Part shown: one piece after another, positions 8,505 through 20,685 of the stretch | How positions within the stretch are numbered: position 1 is the first letter of the stretch | Layout: the number at the start of each line of letters is the position of its first letter | IMG/VR virus record: IMGVR_UViG_3300046722_000347 | Coordinates: 1-32,314 of that record | Length of the DNA stretch: 32,314 nucleotides | Strand: one strand, 5' to 3' | Source of the DNA: a virus | The notes under the pieces: generated by a model | The model's input: the letters and a program-made list of their open reading frames with translations, nothing else | The model's database searches: none | Told to the model about the DNA's origin: nothing | Made by a program: the position numbers and the translations under genes

Positions 8505-9464
8505 TCATGCCTCCTGTTGTTGCTTGAGAATTCGGAATACGCGAAAGTCGGCCGGTTCAACCGCGTAGCCCTTGCGATGCTGCAGGCGCCAGGACAAACG
8601 GCGGCCATCGGCCAGGCGCCCGTAGGTCGCGGCGCCCAACTTCGCGGTCAGTTCGGTTTTGAGTGCGGTCTCGGTCTTTTTCAGCCGACTAAGGGCCGCC
8701 TGCGCCTCGGTCAGCTCATCGACCGCGACGAGCGCGCGGTTGTCGGTGGTCAGATCGATCTCGCTGCCATCGTCCTGCGGAAAGAGTTGCTTGATCAGCG
8801 CCTCGTCGCGCTGCGGCTCGAAGTCGGGCATCACGCCGGGATCGAGATGGTCGCGCCAGAACGCGGCAACGTCGTAGCGGATGCGATCCTCGAGGATTGG
8901 GTCAGGCTCGATGTCGAATAGGCGAAACGACCAGTCGTATTCGCCGTTTACCAGCACCGCGAGCACGGCCCACGGGCAGCGGTCGGCGTTGAGCATGCGC
9001 TCGCAGACCGTCTGCAGTCGGAAGTGCGCCGGCGGCATCGCCGGCCCGTCGAACGGCCCTTCGGGATCGTCCAACCATTTGGCACGATAGACCGAGCGGC
9101 TCACGACCTTGGCCTGGACGAGGCCGAAGCCTTCCCGATCGGGCGCGGTCGCAAAGCCGTCCGGTGTGCAGGCGATCCGCGCCTCGCGATCGATGACGTG
9201 GACGCGGGCGCGCTGCACGTCCCATTCGGGCCGCTCGTCGGCGAGCGCCTGGAACGCAGCCGATTCTCCCCAGCGGCCGCGGCGTAGCACGCCGCTATCA
9301 ACCATCGGCGGGCGCAGGCCCTTCTTTTCGGCGTAGAGTTCGGCGAGCGAGCCGTAAGCCGCGACGCCGCAGACGGTGGCGACTTCGCTGGCGCCGATGT
9401 AGCGCTGTCGCTCGGCCAACCAATCGTAGGTGTCGGTGATCTCGACGCGCTCAATCGGTTTCAT
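8505..9464 (-). CDS. YqaJ-like phage exonuclease
   Basis: A 319-residue nuclease of the lambda-exonuclease/YqaJ fold that would resect double-stranded ends for recombination. Motifs in order: Y-I-G-A-S-E-V-A-T-V-C-G near residue 22, G-R-W-G-E-S-A (conserved Glu), C-T-P-D-G-F (metal-binding Asp) and L-V-Q-A-K-V-V, the equivalent of the E-x-K motif with Gln in place of Glu. The C-terminal 80 residues are a coiled coil (EAQAALSRLKKTETALKTEL). I start at the ATG at 9464 behind GGGGAG. An upstream in-frame Met would read through the left operator. It is the first gene of the leftward operon. Confidence 0.85.
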   Translation of the reverse strand: MKPIERVEITDTYDWLAERQRYIGASEVATVCGVAAYGSLAELYAEKKGLRPPMVDSGVLRRGRWGESAAFQALADERPEWDVQRARVHVIDREARIACTPDGFATAPDREGFGLVQAKVVSRSVYRAKWLDDPEGPFDGPAMPPAHFRLQTVCERMLNADRCPWAVLAVLVNGEYDWSFRLFDIEPDPILEDRIRYDVAAFWRDHLDPGVMPDFEPQRDEALIKQLFPQDDGSEIDLTTDNRALVAVDELTEAQAALSRLKKTETALKTELTAKLGAATYGRLADGRRLSWRLQHRKGYAVEPADFRVFRILKQQQEA

Positions 9465-9490
9465 CAGGCTCCCCGTTGTAGTGGGGAGCA

Positions 9491-9519
9491 GTGTTGTCAC
9501 CAATTTGGTGACTGGTCAA
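9491..9519 (-). promoter_or_regulatory. Leftward early promoter with operator in its spacer
   Basis: On the minus strand TTGACC (9519-9514) is followed by a 17-base spacer consisting almost entirely of the operator GTCACC-N5-GGTGAC, then CAACAC at the -10 position. The -35 and spacer are convincing and the -10 is weak. The layout mirrors the rightward promoter, where the spacer also holds an operator. Repressor bound here would exclude RNA polymerase. Confidence 0.5.
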
Positions 9520-9567: not shown

Positions 9568-10167
9568 CTATAGGTCGAGCATGGTCCGACGCACCCGCCC
9601 AACCACCTCAAAATCCTTGCGCTTTTCGATGAAAATAGGCCCCTCGGCGGGGTCGGTGGAAAATGCAGCTAGGTACGATGGCTTCCCGGCCTGCCATCGC
9701 TTATAGGTCGTCGCGCCGCGAACGGCGAAAACATAAAACCTGCCGGCTAGCAGCGTCTTGTCTGATTTGTCCACGACGATAACCGATCCGTCCGGTGAAA
9801 CTCGGTCCATTGAGGCACCGTGAACCCTCAAGGCAAAGAACTCGCCGCGGCCCAAGTCTGCAAAGGCCAAAAGCGGTACGTCTTCCATGGGGAGTTGGCT
9901 CCTCGTGTTGGTAAGCCTGCCAGCCTGTATCCAATCGAGTAGAGGAATGCGCTGGATTCCGCCGCCATCGGAAAGCAGCAGTTCCCCCGCAGTCGTTTGG
10001 AGCACCGGCGCTATCTTTTCGGCCCAAGGCACGGTGAGTTTCCGCTCCCCCCGCGCCCATCGGTCAATGTTTTGCTTTGTTGTACCGACCTCCGCCGCCA
10101 GCGCAGTAGGCCCAATGCCGAGCCGCTTCATCGCAGCCGCAAGTCCATTTCGGTAAATCTGCACCAT
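9568..10167 (-). CDS. CI-like prophage repressor, S24 family
   Basis: A 199-residue repressor. The N-terminal HTH, about residues 15-45, includes LAAEVGTTKQNIDRWARGER. The C-terminal S24 peptidase domain has Ser119 in V-H-G-A-S-M and Lys157 in T-T-Y-K-R-W, the catalytic dyad of LexA-type autocleavage. A-G in I-Q-A-G-R-L (residues 82-83) is the likely cleavage bond. DNA damage would thus inactivate it and induce the phage. I start at 10167. A longer reading frame would cross the operators. A TTATAA-like -10 lies just before the ATG, so its message may be leaderless. Five matching operators flank it. Confidence 0.9.
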   Translation of the reverse strand: MVQIYRNGLAAAMKRLGIGPTALAAEVGTTKQNIDRWARGERKLTVPWAEKIAPVLQTTAGELLLSDGGGIQRIPLLDWIQAGRLTNTRSQLPMEDVPLLAFADLGRGEFFALRVHGASMDRVSPDGSVIVVDKSDKTLLAGRFYVFAVRGATTYKRWQAGKPSYLAAFSTDPAEGPIFIEKRKDFEVVGRVRRTMLDL

Positions 10168-10176
10168 CCTTATAAT

Positions 10177-10250
10177 GTCACCGTATTGGCGACGGCGGTG
10201 AAGGCTCCAATTTGGTGACGGAGAGGTTGACGGGTCACCATAATGGTGAC
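10177..10250. promoter_or_regulatory. Right operators OR1-OR3
   Basis: Three copies of the operator between the divergent repressor and Cro-like genes: 10177-10193 (GTCACC-GTATT-GGCGAC, one half changed), 10203-10219 (only the right half GGTGAC is good) and 10234-10250 (GTCACC-ATAAT-GGTGAC, perfect). Centre spacings are 26 and 31 bp. The perfect copy sits in the rightward promoter and the weakest lies between, like graded operator affinity in lambda. Confidence 0.8.
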
Positions 10251-10256
10251 AATTAT
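10227..10256 (+). promoter_or_regulatory. Rightward promoter PR
   Basis: TTGACG (10227-10232) is followed after 17-18 bases by CAATTA/AATTAT (10250-10256). The spacer is the perfect operator. The predicted start, at about 10262, coincides with the ATG of the Cro-like gene, so that gene is probably translated from a leaderless message. Confidence 0.6.
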
Positions 10257-10261
10257 CTGGA

Positions 10262-10468
10262 ATGCGACTTTCCGCATTCATGGGCGAGCGAAACCTTTCA
10301 GACGCTGAGTTCGGCGCGCTGATCGAACGGTCGCGCCAAGCCGTGCACCGATATCGCTCCGGTGATCGAATGCCTGATCAAGCCACCATGGAGAAAATTT
10401 TCGAGGTGACCGACGGTGCCGTAACGCCAAACGACTTCTTTGGACTTGCACAGACGGCATCGTCATAA
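10262..10468 (+). CDS. Cro-like HTH regulator
   Basis: A 68-residue protein with a helix-turn-helix at about residues 14-40 (LSDAEFGALIERSRQAVHRY, then RSGDRMP). The pattern is that of Cro/YdaS-type phage regulators, which oppose the repressor and set up lytic growth. It is divergent from the repressor and separated from it by three operators. Only GGA stands before the ATG at 10262, and the promoter position suggests leaderless translation. A Met at codon 7 is a possible alternative start. Confidence 0.75.
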   Translation: MRLSAFMGERNLSDAEFGALIERSRQAVHRYRSGDRMPDQATMEKIFEVTDGAVTPNDFFGLAQTASS

Positions 10469-16761: not shown

Positions 16762-17042
16762 CCTCGCCGCTGGTCGTAGATGGTCTGGAACTATGCTCCA
16801 AACATCGATCCCAGCGTACCCCACTACCACAACGTAATGATATCAGCGGCTTAGGCGCTCGCGGCCCTCACGCGTGCTGTGCGCACCGGCCTAAAGGTAT
16901 CCTGATGGGTGTGCCGGATTGGAAACGCTCCATCATGGCACTAAATAGACCATATGGCACTAAAACTACCAGATGGAGCGACCTTTTCCCGGCTCGGGCG
17001 CGCCATGGCACAAATCGAGAGCCCCCTCTCTTTGTTTCCTAA
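16758..17042 (+). CDS. Doubtful ORF sharing a KRSIMA motif with its neighbour
   Basis: An open frame of 94 codons starting at TTG and overlapping the previous stop. The only hint that it is coding is K-R-S-I-M-A, present also in the previous protein. The two DNA copies (16558-16575 and 16922-16939) differ only at third positions. Composition is otherwise unlike a protein gene, and no good ribosome binding site is seen. It may be a decayed copy. If not coding, the 430 bases between 16762 and 17191 hold only leader and promoter DNA. Confidence 0.3.
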   Translation: MTSPLVVDGLELCSKHRSQRTPLPQRNDISGLGARGPHACCAHRPKGILMGVPDWKRSIMALNRPYGTKTTRWSDLFPARARHGTNREPPLFVS

Positions 17043-17151
17043 ATGGCACATGGCGGACGCAACAAACTTTCGCGCTCGTGTGCGGATTTGTGTGGATCTT
17101 TCTGGTTCTTTACGGTTTTCTTTTTGTATTTGTTTGATAGGTTGTTGATTG

Positions 17152-17183
17152 CAAGCCCGAATGGCTTGGGCGCAAAGCGAGGA
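17152..17183 (+). promoter_or_regulatory. Leader hairpin plus GCGAGGA, copy 1
   Basis: The hairpin CAAGCC-CGAAT-GGCTTG (17152-17168) is followed by an A-rich gap and the ribosome binding site GCGAGGA (17177-17183), 8 bases before the ATG. It is the first of six leaders of this design in the accessory operon and the only one whose loop lacks TTGGC. Confidence 0.6.
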
Positions 17184-17191
17184 TCAAACAA

Positions 17192-17377
17192 ATGACCCGC
17201 ATTTATCAGACCTACGCTCCCATGAAGCGCGATGGCTTTTGGTGGGTAATTGATAGCGAAGGCTATGAAGTTTCCTATGTTGGATATGAAACCAAAAAAG
17301 AAGCTTTGGAGGCGGCGCGCATAGCCAAGGAGGATGATATTCGCAAGGCGAAATTTGTTGATGACGTTCTGCGTTAA
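17192..17377 (+). CDS. 61-residue hypothetical protein upstream of ribozyme 1
   Basis: A small protein (MTRIYQTYAPMKRDGFWWVI at the start) with a beta-rich first half, D-S-E-G-Y-E-V-S-Y-V-G-Y-E-T, and a helical second half rich in Lys/Ala/Glu. The layout resembles small phage single-domain proteins of unknown role. GCGAGGA 8 bases upstream fixes the start. The TAA is immediately followed, with no spacer, by the first base of a hammerhead ribozyme, so cleavage would leave this message with a hairpin 3' end right after its stop codon. Confidence 0.75.
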   Translation: MTRIYQTYAPMKRDGFWWVIDSEGYEVSYVGYETKKEALEAARIAKEDDIRKAKFVDDVLR

Positions 17378-17429
17378 GGTCGAAACGGGCTTTTGCCCGT
17401 CTGGCGGTAATGCCGTCACTGATGAGACC
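17378..17429 (+). ncRNA. Type II hammerhead ribozyme 1
   Basis: All conserved core elements are present in type II order. Helix II 3' strand GGTC (17378-17381); GAAA (17382-17385); helix III CGGGC-TTTT-GCCCG (17386-17399); T-C (17400-17401), with A17385 pairing T17400; helix I TGGCGG-TAATG-CCGTCA (17402-17418); CTGATGA (17419-17425); helix II 5' strand GACC (17426-17429). Predicted self-cleavage lies between C17401 and T17402. Helix II may extend past an internal loop: CGTT (17372-17375) pairs AACG (17436-17439), so the stop codon lies inside the fold. The ribozyme begins at the base after the TAA. Confidence 0.93.
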
Positions 17430-17442
17430 AGACACAACGAAC

Positions 17443-17478
17443 CGGGCGCTTTGGCGAGTGTCCGACAACATGCGAGGA
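17443..17478 (+). promoter_or_regulatory. Leader hairpin plus GCGAGGA, copy 2
   Basis: CGGGCGC pairs with GTGTCCG (two G-U pairs) around a TTTGGCGA loop (17443-17464), then GCGAGGA at 17472-17478, 7 bases before the ATG. It follows ribozyme 1 by 13 bases, so it would be near the 5'-OH end of the cleaved downstream message. Confidence 0.65.
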
Positions 17479-17485
17479 CGATCAA

Positions 17486-17692
17486 ATGCATTTCAACGGC
17501 ACGAGAGTAACCAAACGGGGTGATACGCTATTCATGCCACTTCCTGGTGATCTGCGTAGACCAATCGAAGGCGGCTGCAGCTGCGCATTCTGCAAGGCGC
17601 ATCCTGATCTTGTTCCGCAATGGGATGTAGTAGCTTGTTCGCCAGCGTCTCCATATGCATGGACAGTGCATTACCCAGAGCTGACGATCTGA
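17486..17692 (+). CDS. 68-residue Cys-containing hypothetical protein
   Basis: A protein with a beta-rich start (MHFNGTRVTKRGDTLFMPLP) and a centre with C-S-C-A-F-C-K, a three-Cys cluster, then W-D-V-V-A-C-S-P. The four Cys could bind a metal. GCGAGGA 7 bases upstream fixes the start. It lies between ribozyme 1 and the 17778 gene and is followed by a plain stem-loop, CATGGGCA-TTTCGG-TGCCCATG at 17701-17722, instead of a ribozyme. Function unknown. Confidence 0.7.
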   Translation: MHFNGTRVTKRGDTLFMPLPGDLRRPIEGGCSCAFCKAHPDLVPQWDVVACSPASPYAWTVHYPELTI

Positions 17693-17740
17693 TTGCAGCC
17701 CATGGGCATTTCGGTGCCCATGATCGGCGATCAGGCCGGC

Positions 17741-17769
17741 CTCTTTGGCGAGAGTCGACATAGCGAGGA
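17741..17769 (+). promoter_or_regulatory. Leader hairpin plus GCGAGGA, copy 3
   Basis: A short CTC-TTTGGC-GAG stem (17741-17752) followed by GCGAGGA (17763-17769), 8 bases before the ATG at 17778. The TTTGGCGAG core is identical to copy 2 although the flanks differ. Confidence 0.55.
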
Positions 17770-17777
17770 CAATGCAA

Positions 17778-18239
17778 ATGTCCGCTTTCGTAGTTTCCCA
17801 CGACCATATCGACGCGCTACTTTCGTTCGCTAAGGATAAACGGATGAAAGACCAGTTCGGCTATTACATTCAGCCGAGTAAGGCTGAATTGTTTGATTGG
17901 ACTGATATCGGCCGCGTACTATTGGCCGAGAACGAACGGTCGGTCTGCCATCGTTACCCGGATTGCGGCCCTGGCAACATGCCGGGCAAGATCGGCGAGG
18001 ACGCGAGCGGCTATACGTTCCGGTATTTTGAGCCATTCGTCCATATGGGGCACATGAAGCGCTGCGTCTGGGTCATCAAAAATTGCGACTGTTTCGACTA
18101 TCAGGCTTGCGAGACCGACGATTATCGGCAGACGGTCGCGCACCGGATTATAGCGGCAATCCGGTCGCGGGCGATTAATGGGCTTCCCGATTACGAGACC
18201 GCGCCCTGGGGGATAGATCGCAATCGATCGGCGGCATAA
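17778..18239 (+). CDS. Conserved hypothetical phage protein upstream of ribozyme 2
   Basis: A 153-residue protein beginning MSAFVVSHDHIDALLSFAKD. It continues with I-G-R-V-L-L-A-E-N-E-R-S-V-C-H-R-Y-P-D and later N-C-D-C-F-D-Y-Q-A-C. From memory, proteins opening with M-S-A-F-(I/V)-V-S-x-x-H-I-D-x-L-L are frequent in plasmids and prophages of Proteobacteria, function unknown. Start chosen at 17778 by GCGAGGA spacing over an ATG two codons earlier. The TAA at 18237-18239 is directly followed by ribozyme 2. Confidence 0.8.
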   Translation: MSAFVVSHDHIDALLSFAKDKRMKDQFGYYIQPSKAELFDWTDIGRVLLAENERSVCHRYPDCGPGNMPGKIGEDASGYTFRYFEPFVHMGHMKRCVWVIKNCDCFDYQACETDDYRQTVAHRIIAAIRSRAINGLPDYETAPWGIDRNRSAA

Positions 18240-18298
18240 GGACGAAACCGGGCGCTTGTTGTGCCCGGTCGGCCGGTATCGCCGGCCCTGACGAGTCC
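18240..18298 (+). ncRNA. Type II hammerhead ribozyme 2
   Basis: Helix II 3' strand GGAC (18240-18243); GAAA (18244-18247); helix III CCGGGC with GCCCGG (18248-18268), an apical loop that can add G-U and C-G pairs; T-C (18269-18270), with A18247 pairing T18269; helix I GGCCGG-TATCG-CCGGCC (18271-18287); CTGACGA (18288-18294); helix II 5' strand GTCC (18295-18298), perfect complement of GGAC. Predicted cleavage lies between C18270 and G18271. It starts at the base after the TAA of the upstream gene, as ribozyme 1 does, although stem sequences differ. This is covariation that supports the structure. Confidence 0.95.
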
Positions 18299-18314
18299 AG
18301 ATAACCACCAACCC

Positions 18315-18345
18315 GGCGCCTTGGCGGGCGCCCAAAATGCGAGGA
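18315..18345 (+). promoter_or_regulatory. Leader hairpin plus GCGAGGA, copy 4
   Basis: GGCGCC-TTGGCG-GGCGCC (18315-18332) followed by GCGAGGA (18339-18345). No ATG is found at the usual 7-9 base distance. An ATT at 18356 opens a 27-codon frame, and a GTG at 18348 is too close. The leader therefore serves a non-standard start or only passes ribosomes to the next gene. Confidence 0.6.
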
Positions 18346-18355
18346 CAGTGGCGAC

Positions 18356-18439
18356 ATTGGCCTGTTCTCCGATGACGCGCTACAGGCCAATCTTGATCTG
18401 ATTGTCGAAATGTTCCAGCAACCCACCAACGAGGAATGA
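18356..18439 (+). CDS. 27-codon ORF with possible ATT start
   Basis: From ATT at 18356 the frame reads I-G-L-F-S-D-D-A-L-Q-A-N-L-D-L-I-V-E-M-F-Q-Q-P-T-N-E-E and stops in the TGA of GAGGAATGA, which also contains the ribosome binding site of the next gene. The peptide is amphipathic and protein-like, and the leader upstream is a full copy of the operon type. ATT starts are rare, so this is either a real small protein with restrained initiation or a relic whose ATG mutated. Confidence 0.35.
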   Translation: MGLFSDDALQANLDLIVEMFQQPTNEE

Positions 18440-18443
18440 CGCC

Positions 18444-18638
18444 ATGTCGCCAGACGACGACCATAGCACACCGCCGACGCAGGCCGAGGTTGAGGCCATC
18501 TCGCGCGAGCTGACCGAGGCGCACCCGGGACGCTCTTCCGCCACCGCAGACCTATGCCAGCGCGCCGCCCTCATGATCGCGCGACTCGAGCGGGCCTGGC
18601 TGGAGGCCCGCAGCCACAAGGATGAAACGGGGAACTAA
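18444..18638 (+). CDS. 64-residue hypothetical protein overlapping ribozyme 3
   Basis: An acidic, helical protein (MSPDDDHSTPPTQAEVEAIS near the start, then AALMIARLERAWLEARSHKD). ACGAGGA 8 bases before the ATG at 18444 matches the operon's ribosome binding sites and sets the start. The last five codons and the TAA lie inside the third hammerhead: G-N-stop falls in the helix III strand and loop, so a terminating ribosome would hold the ribozyme open. Function unknown. Confidence 0.65.
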   Translation: MSPDDDHSTPPTQAEVEAISRELTEAHPGRSSATADLCQRAALMIARLERAWLEARSHKDETGN

Positions 18639-18674
18639 CCCCCGTCGCGCCGTGACGCGGCGCCTGATGAGTCC
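18620..18674 (+). ncRNA. Type II hammerhead ribozyme 3
   Basis: Helix II 3' strand GGAT (18620-18623); GAAA (18624-18627); helix III CGGGG-AACTAAC-CCCCG (18628-18644); T-C (18645-18646), with A18627 pairing T18645; helix I GCGCCG-TGACG-CGGCGC (18647-18663); CTGATGA (18664-18670); GTCC (18671-18674) pairs GGAT with one G-U. Predicted cleavage lies between C18646 and G18647. Helix I has the same 6-bp stem and 5-base T...G loop as ribozymes 1 and 2. Unlike those, it overlaps coding sequence: the upstream TAA (18636-18638) is in the helix III loop. Confidence 0.92.
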
Positions 18675-18685
18675 AGTTCCGACTC

Positions 18686-18713
18686 GCCGCATGGCGCGGC
18701 ACACAAGCGAGGA
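18686..18713 (+). promoter_or_regulatory. Leader hairpin plus GCGAGGA, copy 5
   Basis: GCCGC-ATGGC-GCGGC (18686-18700), then GCGAGGA (18707-18713), 9 bases before the ATG at 18723. It lies 11 bases after ribozyme 3. Confidence 0.6.
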
Positions 18714-18722
18714 CAAACGACC

Positions 18723-19037
18723 ATGATGAAACGATTATTGCTTGCGAGCACGTTATTGTTGCCTGTTGCGGCGCATGCGACACCGCTGGACCAGGCGAAC
18801 ACGCTCGCCTTTATAAAGGAGGCAATGGCAACTTGTTTGGCGGGAATGAATAACAACAACGCTTATTGCAGTTGTTACGTCCTCGCTGCCGCCAACAGGA
18901 GCACGATGGAGGACGGCGCGTATTTCATCGCAAACGGAAAACTTCCGGCCGATTACGTCGAGCGCGTTGCCAAGCCATCGATAGCGGATTGCCTGAAGCC
19001 ACCCGTATCCGACAAAAATTGGTGGCAAGTCTGGTAA
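18723..19037 (+). CDS. Small exported protein with conserved cysteines
   Basis: A 104-residue protein with a Sec signal peptide (MMKRLLLASTLLLPVAAHAT, cleavage likely after A-H-A). The mature part has C-L-A-G...A-Y-C-S-C-Y and a late D-C-L-K, four Cys suited to disulfides in the periplasm. Two ATGs are adjacent (18723, 18726) and GCGAGGA fits the first. It is the first gene downstream of ribozyme 3, so after cleavage its message would start at G18647. Function unknown, possibly host-envelope modification in the lysogen. Confidence 0.7.
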   Translation: MMKRLLLASTLLLPVAAHATPLDQANTLAFIKEAMATCLAGMNNNNAYCSCYVLAAANRSTMEDGAYFIANGKLPADYVERVAKPSIADCLKPPVSDKNWWQVW

Positions 19038-19047
19038 ACGGCGGGGC

Positions 19048-19115
19048 GGGCCGGCGGGATTGGCGTCCCGGCCGGCCCTATCCTTCCGCGGGCATCCGGG
19101 ACACCCAGGTGTCCC
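19048..19115 (+). terminator. Two strong hairpins after the exported-protein gene
   Basis: GGGCCGG pairs CCGGCCC with a further inner stem (19048-19078). GGGACACC-CA-GGTGTCCC follows (19098-19115). No T-run follows either. They occupy the place that ribozymes take after other genes and could stop exonucleases or terminate with Rho. The 19116-19226 stretch shows no gene. Confidence 0.5.
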
Positions 19116-19226
19116 TTGGCTGCCGCGAGGACCGAAGCAGCCGGCCCGGCGGACGGAATGATTAAACATTAACAGAGGCCGCCGCTCTTGCGCCATATGG
19201 CGCTCTGGGCAATATTACCGGAACCA

Positions 19227-19263
19227 GGGCGGCCTTGGCGGGCGCCCATCAAACAAGCGAGGA
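19227..19263 (+). promoter_or_regulatory. Leader hairpin plus GCGAGGA, copy 6
   Basis: GGGCG pairs CGCCC around GCCTTGGCGGG (19227-19247), then GCGAGGA (19257-19263), 7 bases before the ATG. The block CCTTGGCGGGCGCCCA is shared base for base with copy 4. Confidence 0.65.
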
Positions 19264-19270
19264 CAATCCA

Positions 19271-19564
19271 ATGCGACGACTTGTAATAATTACCGCCGTG
19301 CTGTGCGGCACGCTGGCACCCGCCCATGCCGGCGATCTGACGCCAGCCGAGCAGAAACAAATCGCCAATCTGGAAGCGCAGATAGAATTCGTCAACGCTG
19401 CCAACGACAAGCACGTTGCCAACCTCGAGGCGCAAATCCAGTTTGTCAAGGACAACGCCGCGCAACGCGAAGCGGCATGGCGGGCCAAGTGTACGGTCGC
19501 GTTCCTGGGGATTGGTTGCCCGCCCAGGAACGATCCTTGGGACCAATTCAGGATTGCCCAATGA
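19271..19564 (+). CDS. Exported coiled-coil protein
   Basis: A 97-residue protein with a signal peptide (MRRLVIITAVLCGTLAPAHA), then a coiled coil that contains an internal repeat: IANLEAQIEFVNAAND and VANLEAQIQFVKDNAA, 18 residues apart. A short Cys-containing end follows (C-T-V-A-F-L-G-I-G-C-P-P). GCGAGGA 7 bases upstream defines the start. It would act in the periplasm. The repeat suggests a trimeric or dimeric rod. No function known. Confidence 0.7.
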   Translation: MRRLVIITAVLCGTLAPAHAGDLTPAEQKQIANLEAQIEFVNAANDKHVANLEAQIQFVKDNAAQREAAWRAKCTVAFLGIGCPPRNDPWDQFRIAQ

Positions 19565-19589
19565 GCAGCGCCAAGGAGCACTAGCTCGA

Positions 19590-19790
19590 ATGACCGTCAT
19601 GATGGCAAAACTCTACGCTGCATTGCGGGCCGGCGACGTGCCGGAGGAGATCGCGCGCGCCGCTGCCGAAGAGGCCGCCGGCTATGAAAATCGGGCCGGC
19701 AAGATCGAAACCGATCTGACGGTCTTGAAATGGATGGTCGGCACCAACATGGCGATGACAAGCGCAATCCTGTTCAAGATGTTTGCTTGA
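19590..19790 (+). CDS. Small membrane protein of DUF1640-like type
   Basis: A 66-residue protein: A-A-L-R-A-G-D-V-P-E-E-I-A-R-A-A-A-E-E helix, a linker, then DLTVLKWMVGTNMAMTSAIL and F-K-M-F, a C-terminal membrane helix. The pairing of a short coiled helix with a D-L-x-V-L-K-W-M-V-G anchor is typical of small phage and bacterial proteins related to DUF1640. Assignment is from memory. AAGGAG 11 bases upstream supports the ATG at 19590. Confidence 0.65.
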   Translation: MTVMMAKLYAALRAGDVPEEIARAAAEEAAGYENRAGKIETDLTVLKWMVGTNMAMTSAILFKMFA

Positions 19791-19808
19791 AAGCGCCAAG
19801 AGGACCAA

Positions 19809-20024
19809 ATGGCAGACATCGATCCGATTGACGCGCGCGAGCAAACCGTTCGCATCGACAAGATGCTGACGGAGATCCATCGCAACTTTGCCGAATCCGA
19901 TCGCCGACATCAGGAAATGCGGCATGCGCCGTGGCAAGTCGCATTCGCCGGCATGACCGCCGGCGCCGCGCTGTTGGCGGCCGGCGTCGCGCTCGGTGCC
20001 ACGATTGTCAAACTGTTTGGATGA
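19809..20024 (+). CDS. Small C-terminally anchored membrane protein
   Basis: A 71-residue protein with an N-terminal acidic helix (MADIDPIDAREQTVRIDKML) and a C-terminal membrane helix rich in Ala/Gly (AGMTAGAALLAAGVALGATI). AAGAGGACCAA precedes the ATG, a variant of the operon's ribosome binding site. The topology matches the gene before it, so the two may interact at the inner membrane. The stop overlaps the next ATG. Confidence 0.65.
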   Translation: MADIDPIDAREQTVRIDKMLTEIHRNFAESDRRHQEMRHAPWQVAFAGMTAGAALLAAGVALGATIVKLFG

Positions 20025-20278
20025 CCAAAATGAAATACGAGGACGACCTCTCGGAAGTTGAACTCGTTAGCGGCGGGCCATGGATCGTCGATCGTCACGG
20101 CGGGCGCTATTCTGATACCCGCAAGGTTCGCGCCGTAGGACCGGACGAAGCGTCAGTCCGGCCCGTCTTCGATAAGATCAAGCGCGACTTACGACAGGGC
20201 GAAGTTAGGTTGCTCGACCCGACCGGAAAGATCGTCGATCGGTGCTGGGCGCCGTGCGCCAGAGTTCATTTGGGTTGA
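20021..20278 (+). CDS. 85-residue hypothetical protein
   Basis: Starts at the ATG overlapping the previous TGA (ATGA). The protein is charged, with MTKMKYEDDLSEVELVSGGP near the start and a C-terminal part reading GEVRLLDPTGKIVDRCWAP, a small beta-rich fold. No known motif. Translational coupling to the membrane-protein gene is evident. Confidence 0.6.
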   Translation: MTKMKYEDDLSEVELVSGGPWIVDRHGGRYSDTRKVRAVGPDEASVRPVFDKIKRDLRQGEVRLLDPTGKIVDRCWAPCARVHLG

Positions 20279-20283
20279 ATCAA

Positions 20284-20589
20284 ATGCCATGCAGGCACGC
20301 ACATTGGGAATCTGAGGCAGCGGTCGCAGATGGAATGTGCCCAATCTGCTTGGCGGCCGAACGCGATGACCTGCTGAAGGCCAACGCGCTGTTGCACGCG
20401 CTGATCGGCAACCGCGAGGCCGAGATCGAGCAACTGCGGGCCGATTTGCGCCGCCTTTGGCACTTCGCCGGCTGCCCATTCGATCACTGCCAAACCTGCA
20501 TCGATGACGCGAAATGGATCAAGAGCCTGGAGGATCGGCTAGGGCCGCCGTCTGCCAATTCCGTTATAGCGCAGCACGATCAAAAGTGA
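20284..20589 (+). CDS. Cys/His-rich coiled-coil protein
   Basis: A 101-residue protein. MPCRHAHWE and C-P-I-C near the start could form a zinc knuckle. The middle is a coiled coil (LLKANALLHALIGNREAEIE, QLRADLRRLW) and C-P-F-D-H-C-Q-T-C-I-D-D a second Cys/His cluster. I start at the ATG 5 bases after the previous stop. The ribosome binding site is weak, so coupling is likely. It is the last gene of the accessory block before a structured non-coding stretch. Confidence 0.6.
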   Translation: MPCRHAHWESEAAVADGMCPICLAAERDDLLKANALLHALIGNREAEIEQLRADLRRLWHFAGCPFDHCQTCIDDAKWIKSLEDRLGPPSANSVIAQHDQK

Positions 20590-20685
20590 TCCGATCGCGC
20601 CCCTGAAATCAACAAATATTCGAACCCTGAGACGGTTGCCGGGCTCGGAAATAGAAGCTGCTGCAGCAGTCATGAGAGCACCCTT

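Follow-up and report, generated by a model that had tools for sequence, protein, structure and literature searches.

What are three hammerhead ribozymes doing at the boundaries of a row of small phage genes? The question is raised by the IMG/VR virus record IMGVR_UViG_3300046722_000347, a viral record of 32,314 bases, possibly a fragment of a larger genome, which was analysed over its whole length (positions 1 to 32,314, hereafter the window). An earlier interpretation made from the letters alone, which we call the sequence-only reading, had picked out three complete type II hammerheads in one short operon, each locked to a stop codon, and had suggested that they cut a polycistronic message into pieces. 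The elements are the following.

17378-17429, + strand: hammerhead A, type II, at junction J2; predicted cut after 17401
18240-18298, + strand: hammerhead B, type II, at junction J4; predicted cut after 18270
18620-18674, + strand: hammerhead C, type II, at junction J5; predicted cut after 18646; the stop codon of the upstream gene lies in loop III

The answer that we favour, with moderate confidence, is that each hammerhead belongs to a gene-boundary module, in which self-cleavage between genes would leave each gene with RNA ends of its own.

All three elements have a complete core (CUGANGA, GAAA, U16.1 and C17), a stem III hairpin, a 6-bp helix I with a 5-base U...G loop and a 4-bp stem II, which reads GGUC/GACC in A, GGAC/GUCC in B and GGAU/GUCC in C, the last closing with a U-G pair. 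Stems I and III are closed and stem II is open, the topology of type II. The pattern GAAAC-GTC-CTGANGA occurs three times in the window against 0.05 matches expected, with a maximum of one in shuffled sequence, which confirms that three complete hammerheads are present where they had been placed; the cut sites named earlier follow from this anatomy and remain predicted sites. Folded alone, A, B and C each have the hammerhead as their lowest-energy structure (z -3.40, -4.32 and -2.79, respectively), and A and B retain it when folded in context.

Relatives of the window were found through the terminase (22 loci, best-segment identity 59-100%) and through the leader motif described below (4 loci), and several of the related records are near-copies of one another. 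A blastn search with 17000-20600 against 50,697 phage records gave a single 40-base match, and alignment of the terminase with 153 stretches of genome contigs that match either of two peptide patterns yielded no relatives among them. From the window and its relatives 20 hammerheads, 19 of them distinct, were aligned. Standard pairs fill all 285 paired cells, two-sided changes occur at eight of the 15 base pairs, and the covariation score is 0.506, compared with 0.137 for shuffled alignments and at most 0.116 for slid structures; the covariation between copies that had been noticed within the window is thus upheld across the family. With core, topology and pairing in agreement, the assignment of the three elements to type II is as well supported as sequence can make it.

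With a model built from the 20 aligned hammerheads (R1), 47 copies score above 58 bits; they are spread over 16 of 24 records, the window counted, and are confined in each record to about 3.1 kb, whereas two other matches are weak (13.6 and 15.2 bits). Of the eight records with no copy, seven measure 4-13.6 kb and are pieces, and the eighth is a 66.6-kb relative with 60% terminase identity. A covariance search with the Rfam type II model, which had been put forward as a check, went the other way: RF02276 (Hammerhead_II) at its gathering cut-off reports no hammerhead in the window, B (32.4 bits) and A (30.6 bits) score below the 37-bit cut-off, and C goes unreported even in a search of the surrounding 131 bases that admits E values up to 10. 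In the related records RF02276 places 0 of 19 above its cut-off and matches 15 of the 19 at E up to 0.001. At 15 loci chosen for their arrays (L165, L170-L172, L175, L176, L182, L187, L188, L191, L200, L203, L206, L232 and L236) Rfam reports two hammerheads at gathering, compared with 63 R1 matches at E up to 0.01, of which one is weak (18.8 bits). Type II hammerheads with a 4-bp stem II are a blind spot of Rfam, and a covariance model of this subtype would reveal many ribozymes that lie under its cut-off.

The second repeated element is a leader, in which a hairpin with UGGC in its loop is followed, after a short spacer, by GCGAGGA, which lies a few bases 5' of a start. Six of them stand in the gene row, each before an open reading frame (ORF) or what is left of one.

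17155-17183, + strand: leader J1, AUGGC-loop hairpin and GCGAGGA, before ORF 17192
17443-17478, + strand: leader J2, UGGC-loop hairpin and GCGAGGA, before ORF 17486
17741-17769, + strand: leader J3, UGGC-loop hairpin and GCGAGGA, before ORF 17772/17778
18315-18345, + strand: leader J4, UGGC-loop hairpin and GCGAGGA, then a short gene remnant with no clear ATG
18686-18713, + strand: leader J5, AUGGC-loop hairpin and GCGAGGA, before ORF 18723
19227-19263, + strand: leader J6, UGGC-loop hairpin with one mismatch and GCGAGGA, before ORF 19271

Five of the six leaders precede an ATG, that of ORFs 17192, 17486, 17772, 18723 and 19271, and the J4 leader precedes the remnant. They were found with a gapped pattern, a pattern of fixed spacing having missed them; TGGC..GCGAGGA occurs seven times in the window against 0.72 expected, six of the seven are leaders, and none of 100 shuffles reaches seven. 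Loci drawn from viral contigs with a loose leader pattern were rejected as noise, with no hammerhead among the matches listed. The leader stems fall into two loop classes and both covary: in class 1, 98.9% of 90 cells are paired (covariation 0.822 vs 0.191), and in class 2 all 65 cells are paired (0.600 vs 0.129). Paired percentage, covariation score and changed cells lie above all 500 shuffles, and the count of doubly changed pairs does not, being reached by 190 and 118 of the 500. This alignment holds 28 of 33 rows (L155:5839, L157:4380, L162:31, L163:7932 and L164:6036 were omitted), and the mismatched J6 leader of the window falls outside the leader listing through its 5-bp stem filter. 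As read from these elements, the order at a boundary is stop codon, hammerhead, leader and start, and the hammerhead appears as one half of a repeated junction module. The earlier picture of ribozymes punctuating an operon is partly supported; it overlooked that the ribozymes make up only half of the module, that two boundaries have no hammerhead and that the junctions persist in relatives whose genes differ.

In the window, the stops TAA 17375-17377 and TAA 18237-18239 directly adjoin A and B, and TAA 18636-18638, the stop before C, falls within loop III. Hammerheads with a 4-bp stem II were surveyed elsewhere with three patterns, two on viral contigs and one on genome contigs (39 stretches), which gave a set of at least 359 hammerheads at 232 loci or more; 329 had enough flank and 314 were left after dereplication. 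This is no census, and all survey counts given here and below hold among the matches listed. A stop was taken to be in register if it closed a frame open for at least 60 codons and its first base lay within -14 to +2 of G12. By this measure 201 of the 314 have a stop in register, compared with 12-23 of 281-303 (4-8%) at five shifted positions; by source, the counts are 191 of 291 for viral and 10 of 23 for genome contigs. The register peaks at -6 (60), -9 (44) and -7 (40) from G12, and so involves more than one frame, and an A at -5, which the patterns leave unspecified, is 94% conserved and is used by a UAG at -6. A stop stands near the 5' end of the ribozyme in 243 of 314 (47 of 301 antisense), and a Shine-Dalgarno sequence with a start codon within 50 nt past the 3' end in 191 of 314 (11 of 301 antisense), the median distance to the start codon being 24.5 nt. 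The lock to stop codons reported for the window is therefore widespread. The shared helix I design (6 bp, 5-base loop) is likewise present as described, but as a mark of the subtype rather than of this operon, because loop I has five bases in 223 of the 314 and tends to UNANG across the survey. As a tertiary contact, a pseudoknot of at least 4 bp between loop I and the tail is unsupported in the survey (73 of 314 vs 72.5 +- 6.5 when re-dealt), and within the family such pairing is seen in one of 15 loop-tail pairs, that of hammerhead B.

The junctions themselves are kept while the genes between them differ. Their order is the same across the relatives, with an extra hammerhead junction, J7, in five of nine relative records that is missing from the window. 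Ten records entered this comparison, reduced to nine as G008 repeats G018 and to eight at J2 as G016 repeats G013; G003 was omitted because it carries the window's own set. Among the eight phages at J2, 21 of 28 pairs have neither 150-base flank above the 99th percentile for random pairs, and in the same 21 pairs the hammerheads are at least 0.81 identical (mean 0.89) and the leaders at least 0.75 (mean 0.85), the 99th percentile for random 53-mers being 0.66. The downstream proteins, compared by blastp, are clearly homologous in one of the 28 pairs (87%), and two more match over short stretches (E 0.001). The upstream proteins are of five kinds; despite these differing genes the stop codon lies 2-6 nt 5' of the ribozyme in all eight. 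A Pfam scan of 20 proteins between junctions left 16 with no match and one with matches below the cut-off only. Those recognized in relatives are ArdC (E 1.3e-36 and 3e-45, two domains), ArdA (E 9.1e-32) and GP88 (1e-38), the ArdC and ArdA homologues lying between hammerhead junctions at loci L160 and L155 (G018, G004). The genes of the row are probably exchanged by homologous recombination within the conserved junctions. At J4, the leader runs into 28 codons (18338-18439) with no clear start that resemble, by eye, the end of an ORF in G004, and this remnant is likely the trace of a deletion that spared the junction.

How such a module might work can be set out from its anatomy. A polycistronic RNA, presumably a single transcript, would cross the gene row; each hammerhead would fold right after the stop codon and cut itself between helix III and helix I. 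The upstream mRNA, its 3' tail very short, would end in the stem III hairpin; its downstream counterpart would start with the helix I hairpin, followed by the UGGC-loop leader with its ribosome site. Since stem II is the stem left open, both new ends would carry hairpins; of the three classical permutations, type II alone has a topology that leaves a closed hairpin at each. These hairpins may protect the ends, and the UGGC loop may have a function of its own. With the cut behind the stop and a self-sufficient leader, each gene would therefore have both RNA ends to itself, irrespective of the genes beside it, and mRNAs ended separately would suit a row of small exchangeable accessory genes such as ArdA and ArdC in the relatives. 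Cutting of a polycistronic message is in our view the likeliest role of the hammerheads. A bolder version, which we offer tentatively, is a 'gene socket', in which hammerhead and UGGC leader would give any inserted ORF its own 3' end and start region, accessory or antidefence genes could be swapped without disturbing their neighbours, and the ribozyme would have the stop codon as its border, the cut being timed by the end of translation.

A number of observations weigh against the module as proposed. In the survey, 113 of the 314 hammerheads have no tight register. Type I hammerheads (188 found, 138 used) are also in stop register, in 105 of 138 compared with 16 of 136 antisense, and in type III (52 found, 38 used) the effect is weaker (14 of 38 vs 6 of 38). 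Part of the type I effect is expected because the core CUGAUGA itself supplies a UGA, which may serve as the stop; the type I phage hammerheads tied to stop codons are found at loci from L439 on. As type I shows the register and only type II caps both ends, the two-hairpin argument is not the whole reason for it, and compact gene packing alone would bring any element near stop and start codons. Two of the five gene-gene boundaries of the row have no hammerhead (J3, 17690-17771, and J6, 19038-19270), and one of the 47 family copies, the J7 hammerhead L157:4628-4679 (G011), has a core in which C3-U4 has become CC (CCGATGA) and the rest of the structure is intact, which is either decay or a natural core variant. 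Folding predictions also give cause for doubt. When the stretch folded reaches 40 bases beyond the hammerhead, only half of the 26 family copies (13) keep it in their predicted minimum, the other 13 lying 0.4-7.5 kcal/mol above that minimum, among them all five J7 copies (1.0-7.5) and C (1.9), which in context loses stem II to a competing GAGUC/GACUC hairpin.

18669-18685, + strand: GAGUC-N7-GACUC hairpin, mutually exclusive with stem II of hammerhead C (folding prediction)

This hairpin can replace stem II in C and in the five J7 copies (L155, L157, L160, L161 and L163) and is present in the predicted 3' product of all six, where it could aid product release or form an off-state.

At the two boundaries with no hammerhead other structures are seen. 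J3 has a hairpin in the hammerhead's place.

17689-17734, + strand: J3 element, a long hairpin on the stop codon TGA 17690-17692

It consists of GAUUGC/GCGAUC and an inner stem and is kept in relatives, with pairing changes read by eye. The J6 region contains about 200 conserved bases, a G+C-rich hairpin and the palindrome GCGCCATATGGCGC; a terminator may lie there, as may a promoter with its operator.

The register can also be read as a gate. Given the width of a ribosome, one terminating at the stop would sit over both the GAAA strand and the 5' strand of stem II; the ribozyme could then fold and cut only after upstream translation has ceased and would report translation of the preceding gene. 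The tight survey peaks in several frames and the J2 stops 2-6 nt before the ribozyme in eight of eight phages speak for such gating, which we nevertheless regard as doubtful: start codons are also close, so that packing explains part of the effect, the stop of C sits in loop III, type I hammerheads share the register, and hammerheads with tertiary contacts can cut fast, according to the part of PMC6155905 used here, perhaps ahead of the ribosome's arrival. Coupling to termination as the sole cause of the register was rejected, as starts are close too and type I shows it.

The kept junctions might instead serve mainly at the level of DNA, as homology for recombination between phages, with the ribozymes tolerated or a relic. 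Conserved islands amid unrelated flanks, a RecE-like exonuclease in the same phage and the gene remnant fused to the J4 leader would all fit. Selection for DNA identity would not, however, be expected to produce the compensatory changes that maintain all hammerhead helices and the leader stems, and ribozymes of unrelated phages have the same stop register; we consider this explanation improbable.

A third possibility starts from the intervals between ribozymes. In the survey, neighbouring ribozymes lie on one strand in 232 of 232 loci, the median gap of 127 neighbour pairs is 497 nt, and a single ORF spans at least 70% of the gap in 75 of 126 filtered gaps. Two hammerheads could then free a one-gene RNA with a 5'-OH and a 2',3'-cyclic phosphate, which a ligase of the RtcB kind would close into a circle. 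One gene per interval and ribozymes all on one strand would suit circular or religated RNAs, but Perreault et al., who had such circles and also spliced products in view, detected none, as far as the parts of PMC3088659 used here report, and we think this outcome very unlikely. That the three elements are chance or inactive look-alikes, finally, is scarcely credible, for although all three are under the Rfam cut-off and C is predicted to misfold in context, only 0.05 matches were expected and the helices covary across 19 distinct sequences.

Among 84 proteins between surveyed hammerheads, nine Pfam families are represented, with ArdA in one of the 84, and 32 PHROG families, mostly of no assigned function among the best 25 of 32; no functional enrichment can be claimed among the 84 from Pfam or PHROG. 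In the window, ORFs match a terminase large subunit, a head-tail adaptor, an endolysin and a DNA methyltransferase, and six small ORFs form one row on the + strand between 17147 and 19564.

8505-9503 and 9568-10281, - strand: RecE-like exonuclease and CI-like repressor
17192-17377, + strand: ORF of 61 amino acids, of no known family
17486-17692, + strand: ORF of 68 amino acids, of no known family
17772-18239, + strand: ORF of 155 amino acids (153 from ATG 17778), matching phrog_29304 of unknown function (E 1.1e-4)
18444-18638, + strand: ORF of 64 amino acids, its final codons inside hammerhead C
18723-19037, + strand: ORF of 104 amino acids, with a signal-peptide-like start (by eye)
19271-19564, + strand: ORF of 97 amino acids, with a signal-peptide-like start (by eye)

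The exonuclease and repressor possibly indicate a temperate phage with its own recombination, and a lysogen, with the CI-like repressor present, is plausible only; among 39 window ORFs scanned against PHROGs none has a match named integrase, the nearest being weak transposase matches of one ORF (E 8.5e-4). Between 16800 and 19700 there is one promoter-like site (1.5 expected; other promoter types were outside the scan) and there are ten terminator-like sites (3.1 expected), none of them at a hammerhead.

The literature, of which the papers cited below are drawn on in part, provides the background to these findings. Type II hammerheads were reported in bacteria and phages by Perreault et al. 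in 2011 (PMC3088659), who described prophage clusters flanking single genes or short blocks, the flanked genes not being constant, found that three arrays cleave in vitro, the triple array around ardA cleaving in E. coli as well, and put forward the idea of long phage transcripts being processed into shorter mRNAs. Of the sequence-only interpretation, the type II identity has thus held, and the idea of message cutting, in print since 2011, is not new. A 2017 review (PMC6155905) notes hammerheads flanking small non-conserved ORFs and calls the prokaryotic role open, and PMC10085705 states that such ribozymes cluster near certain phage genes and each other for reasons unknown. The words 'stop codon' do not occur in the main text of Perreault et al., and in the open-licence literature we found no link between hammerheads and stop codons in phages and nothing pertinent on hammerheads with phage mosaicism or accessory genes, which does not prove absence. 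What is added here to published work is the junction built as a module, its paired leader and the wide reach of the stop register. The fixed register, one gene per interval, the paired leader and the kept junctions point to one testable job, for which a set of loci is ready, and tight stop-codon placement with modular arrangement is a clue to the function of phage hammerheads, the role left open in the part of PMC6155905 referred to above.

Among known systems, the ribozymes resemble the type II hammerheads of RF02276 and PMC3088659 in core, topology, closed stems I and III, phage setting, gene-flanking clusters and the transcript cutting proposed for them. They differ from these, as far as the parts of PMC3088659 considered here describe them, in a 4-bp stem II, a UNANG-type loop I and a score under the Rfam cut-off, in the tie to a UGGC-loop leader and stop codons, and, compared with the published type II consensus, in the lack of any trace of a loop I-tail pseudoknot among the survey matches listed. 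The leaders recall the SAS and ESAS repeats of cluster K mycobacteriophages (PMC3203893), short repeats before the starts of unrelated small genes in the non-structural arm, some of them carrying an added inverted repeat. ESAS repeats do not support RNA pairing according to their authors, whereas the window leader stems covary, and the parts of PMC3203893 used here mention no ribozyme, unlike the modules of the window; the leaders also have a different sequence, the 13-bp SAS consensus GGGATAGGAGCCC being no commoner in the window than by chance (five matches with up to three mismatches against 11.05 expected). Like clustered phage hammerhead arrays in general, the window has several hammerheads on one strand that flank genes. 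It is like the ardA triple array of Agrobacterium tumefaciens (PMC3088659) in having three hammerheads, a phage-type polycistron and an antirestriction gene, here in relatives; to that array, for which the parts of the paper considered here mention neither, the window family adds a start leader and the exchange of genes between fixed junctions.

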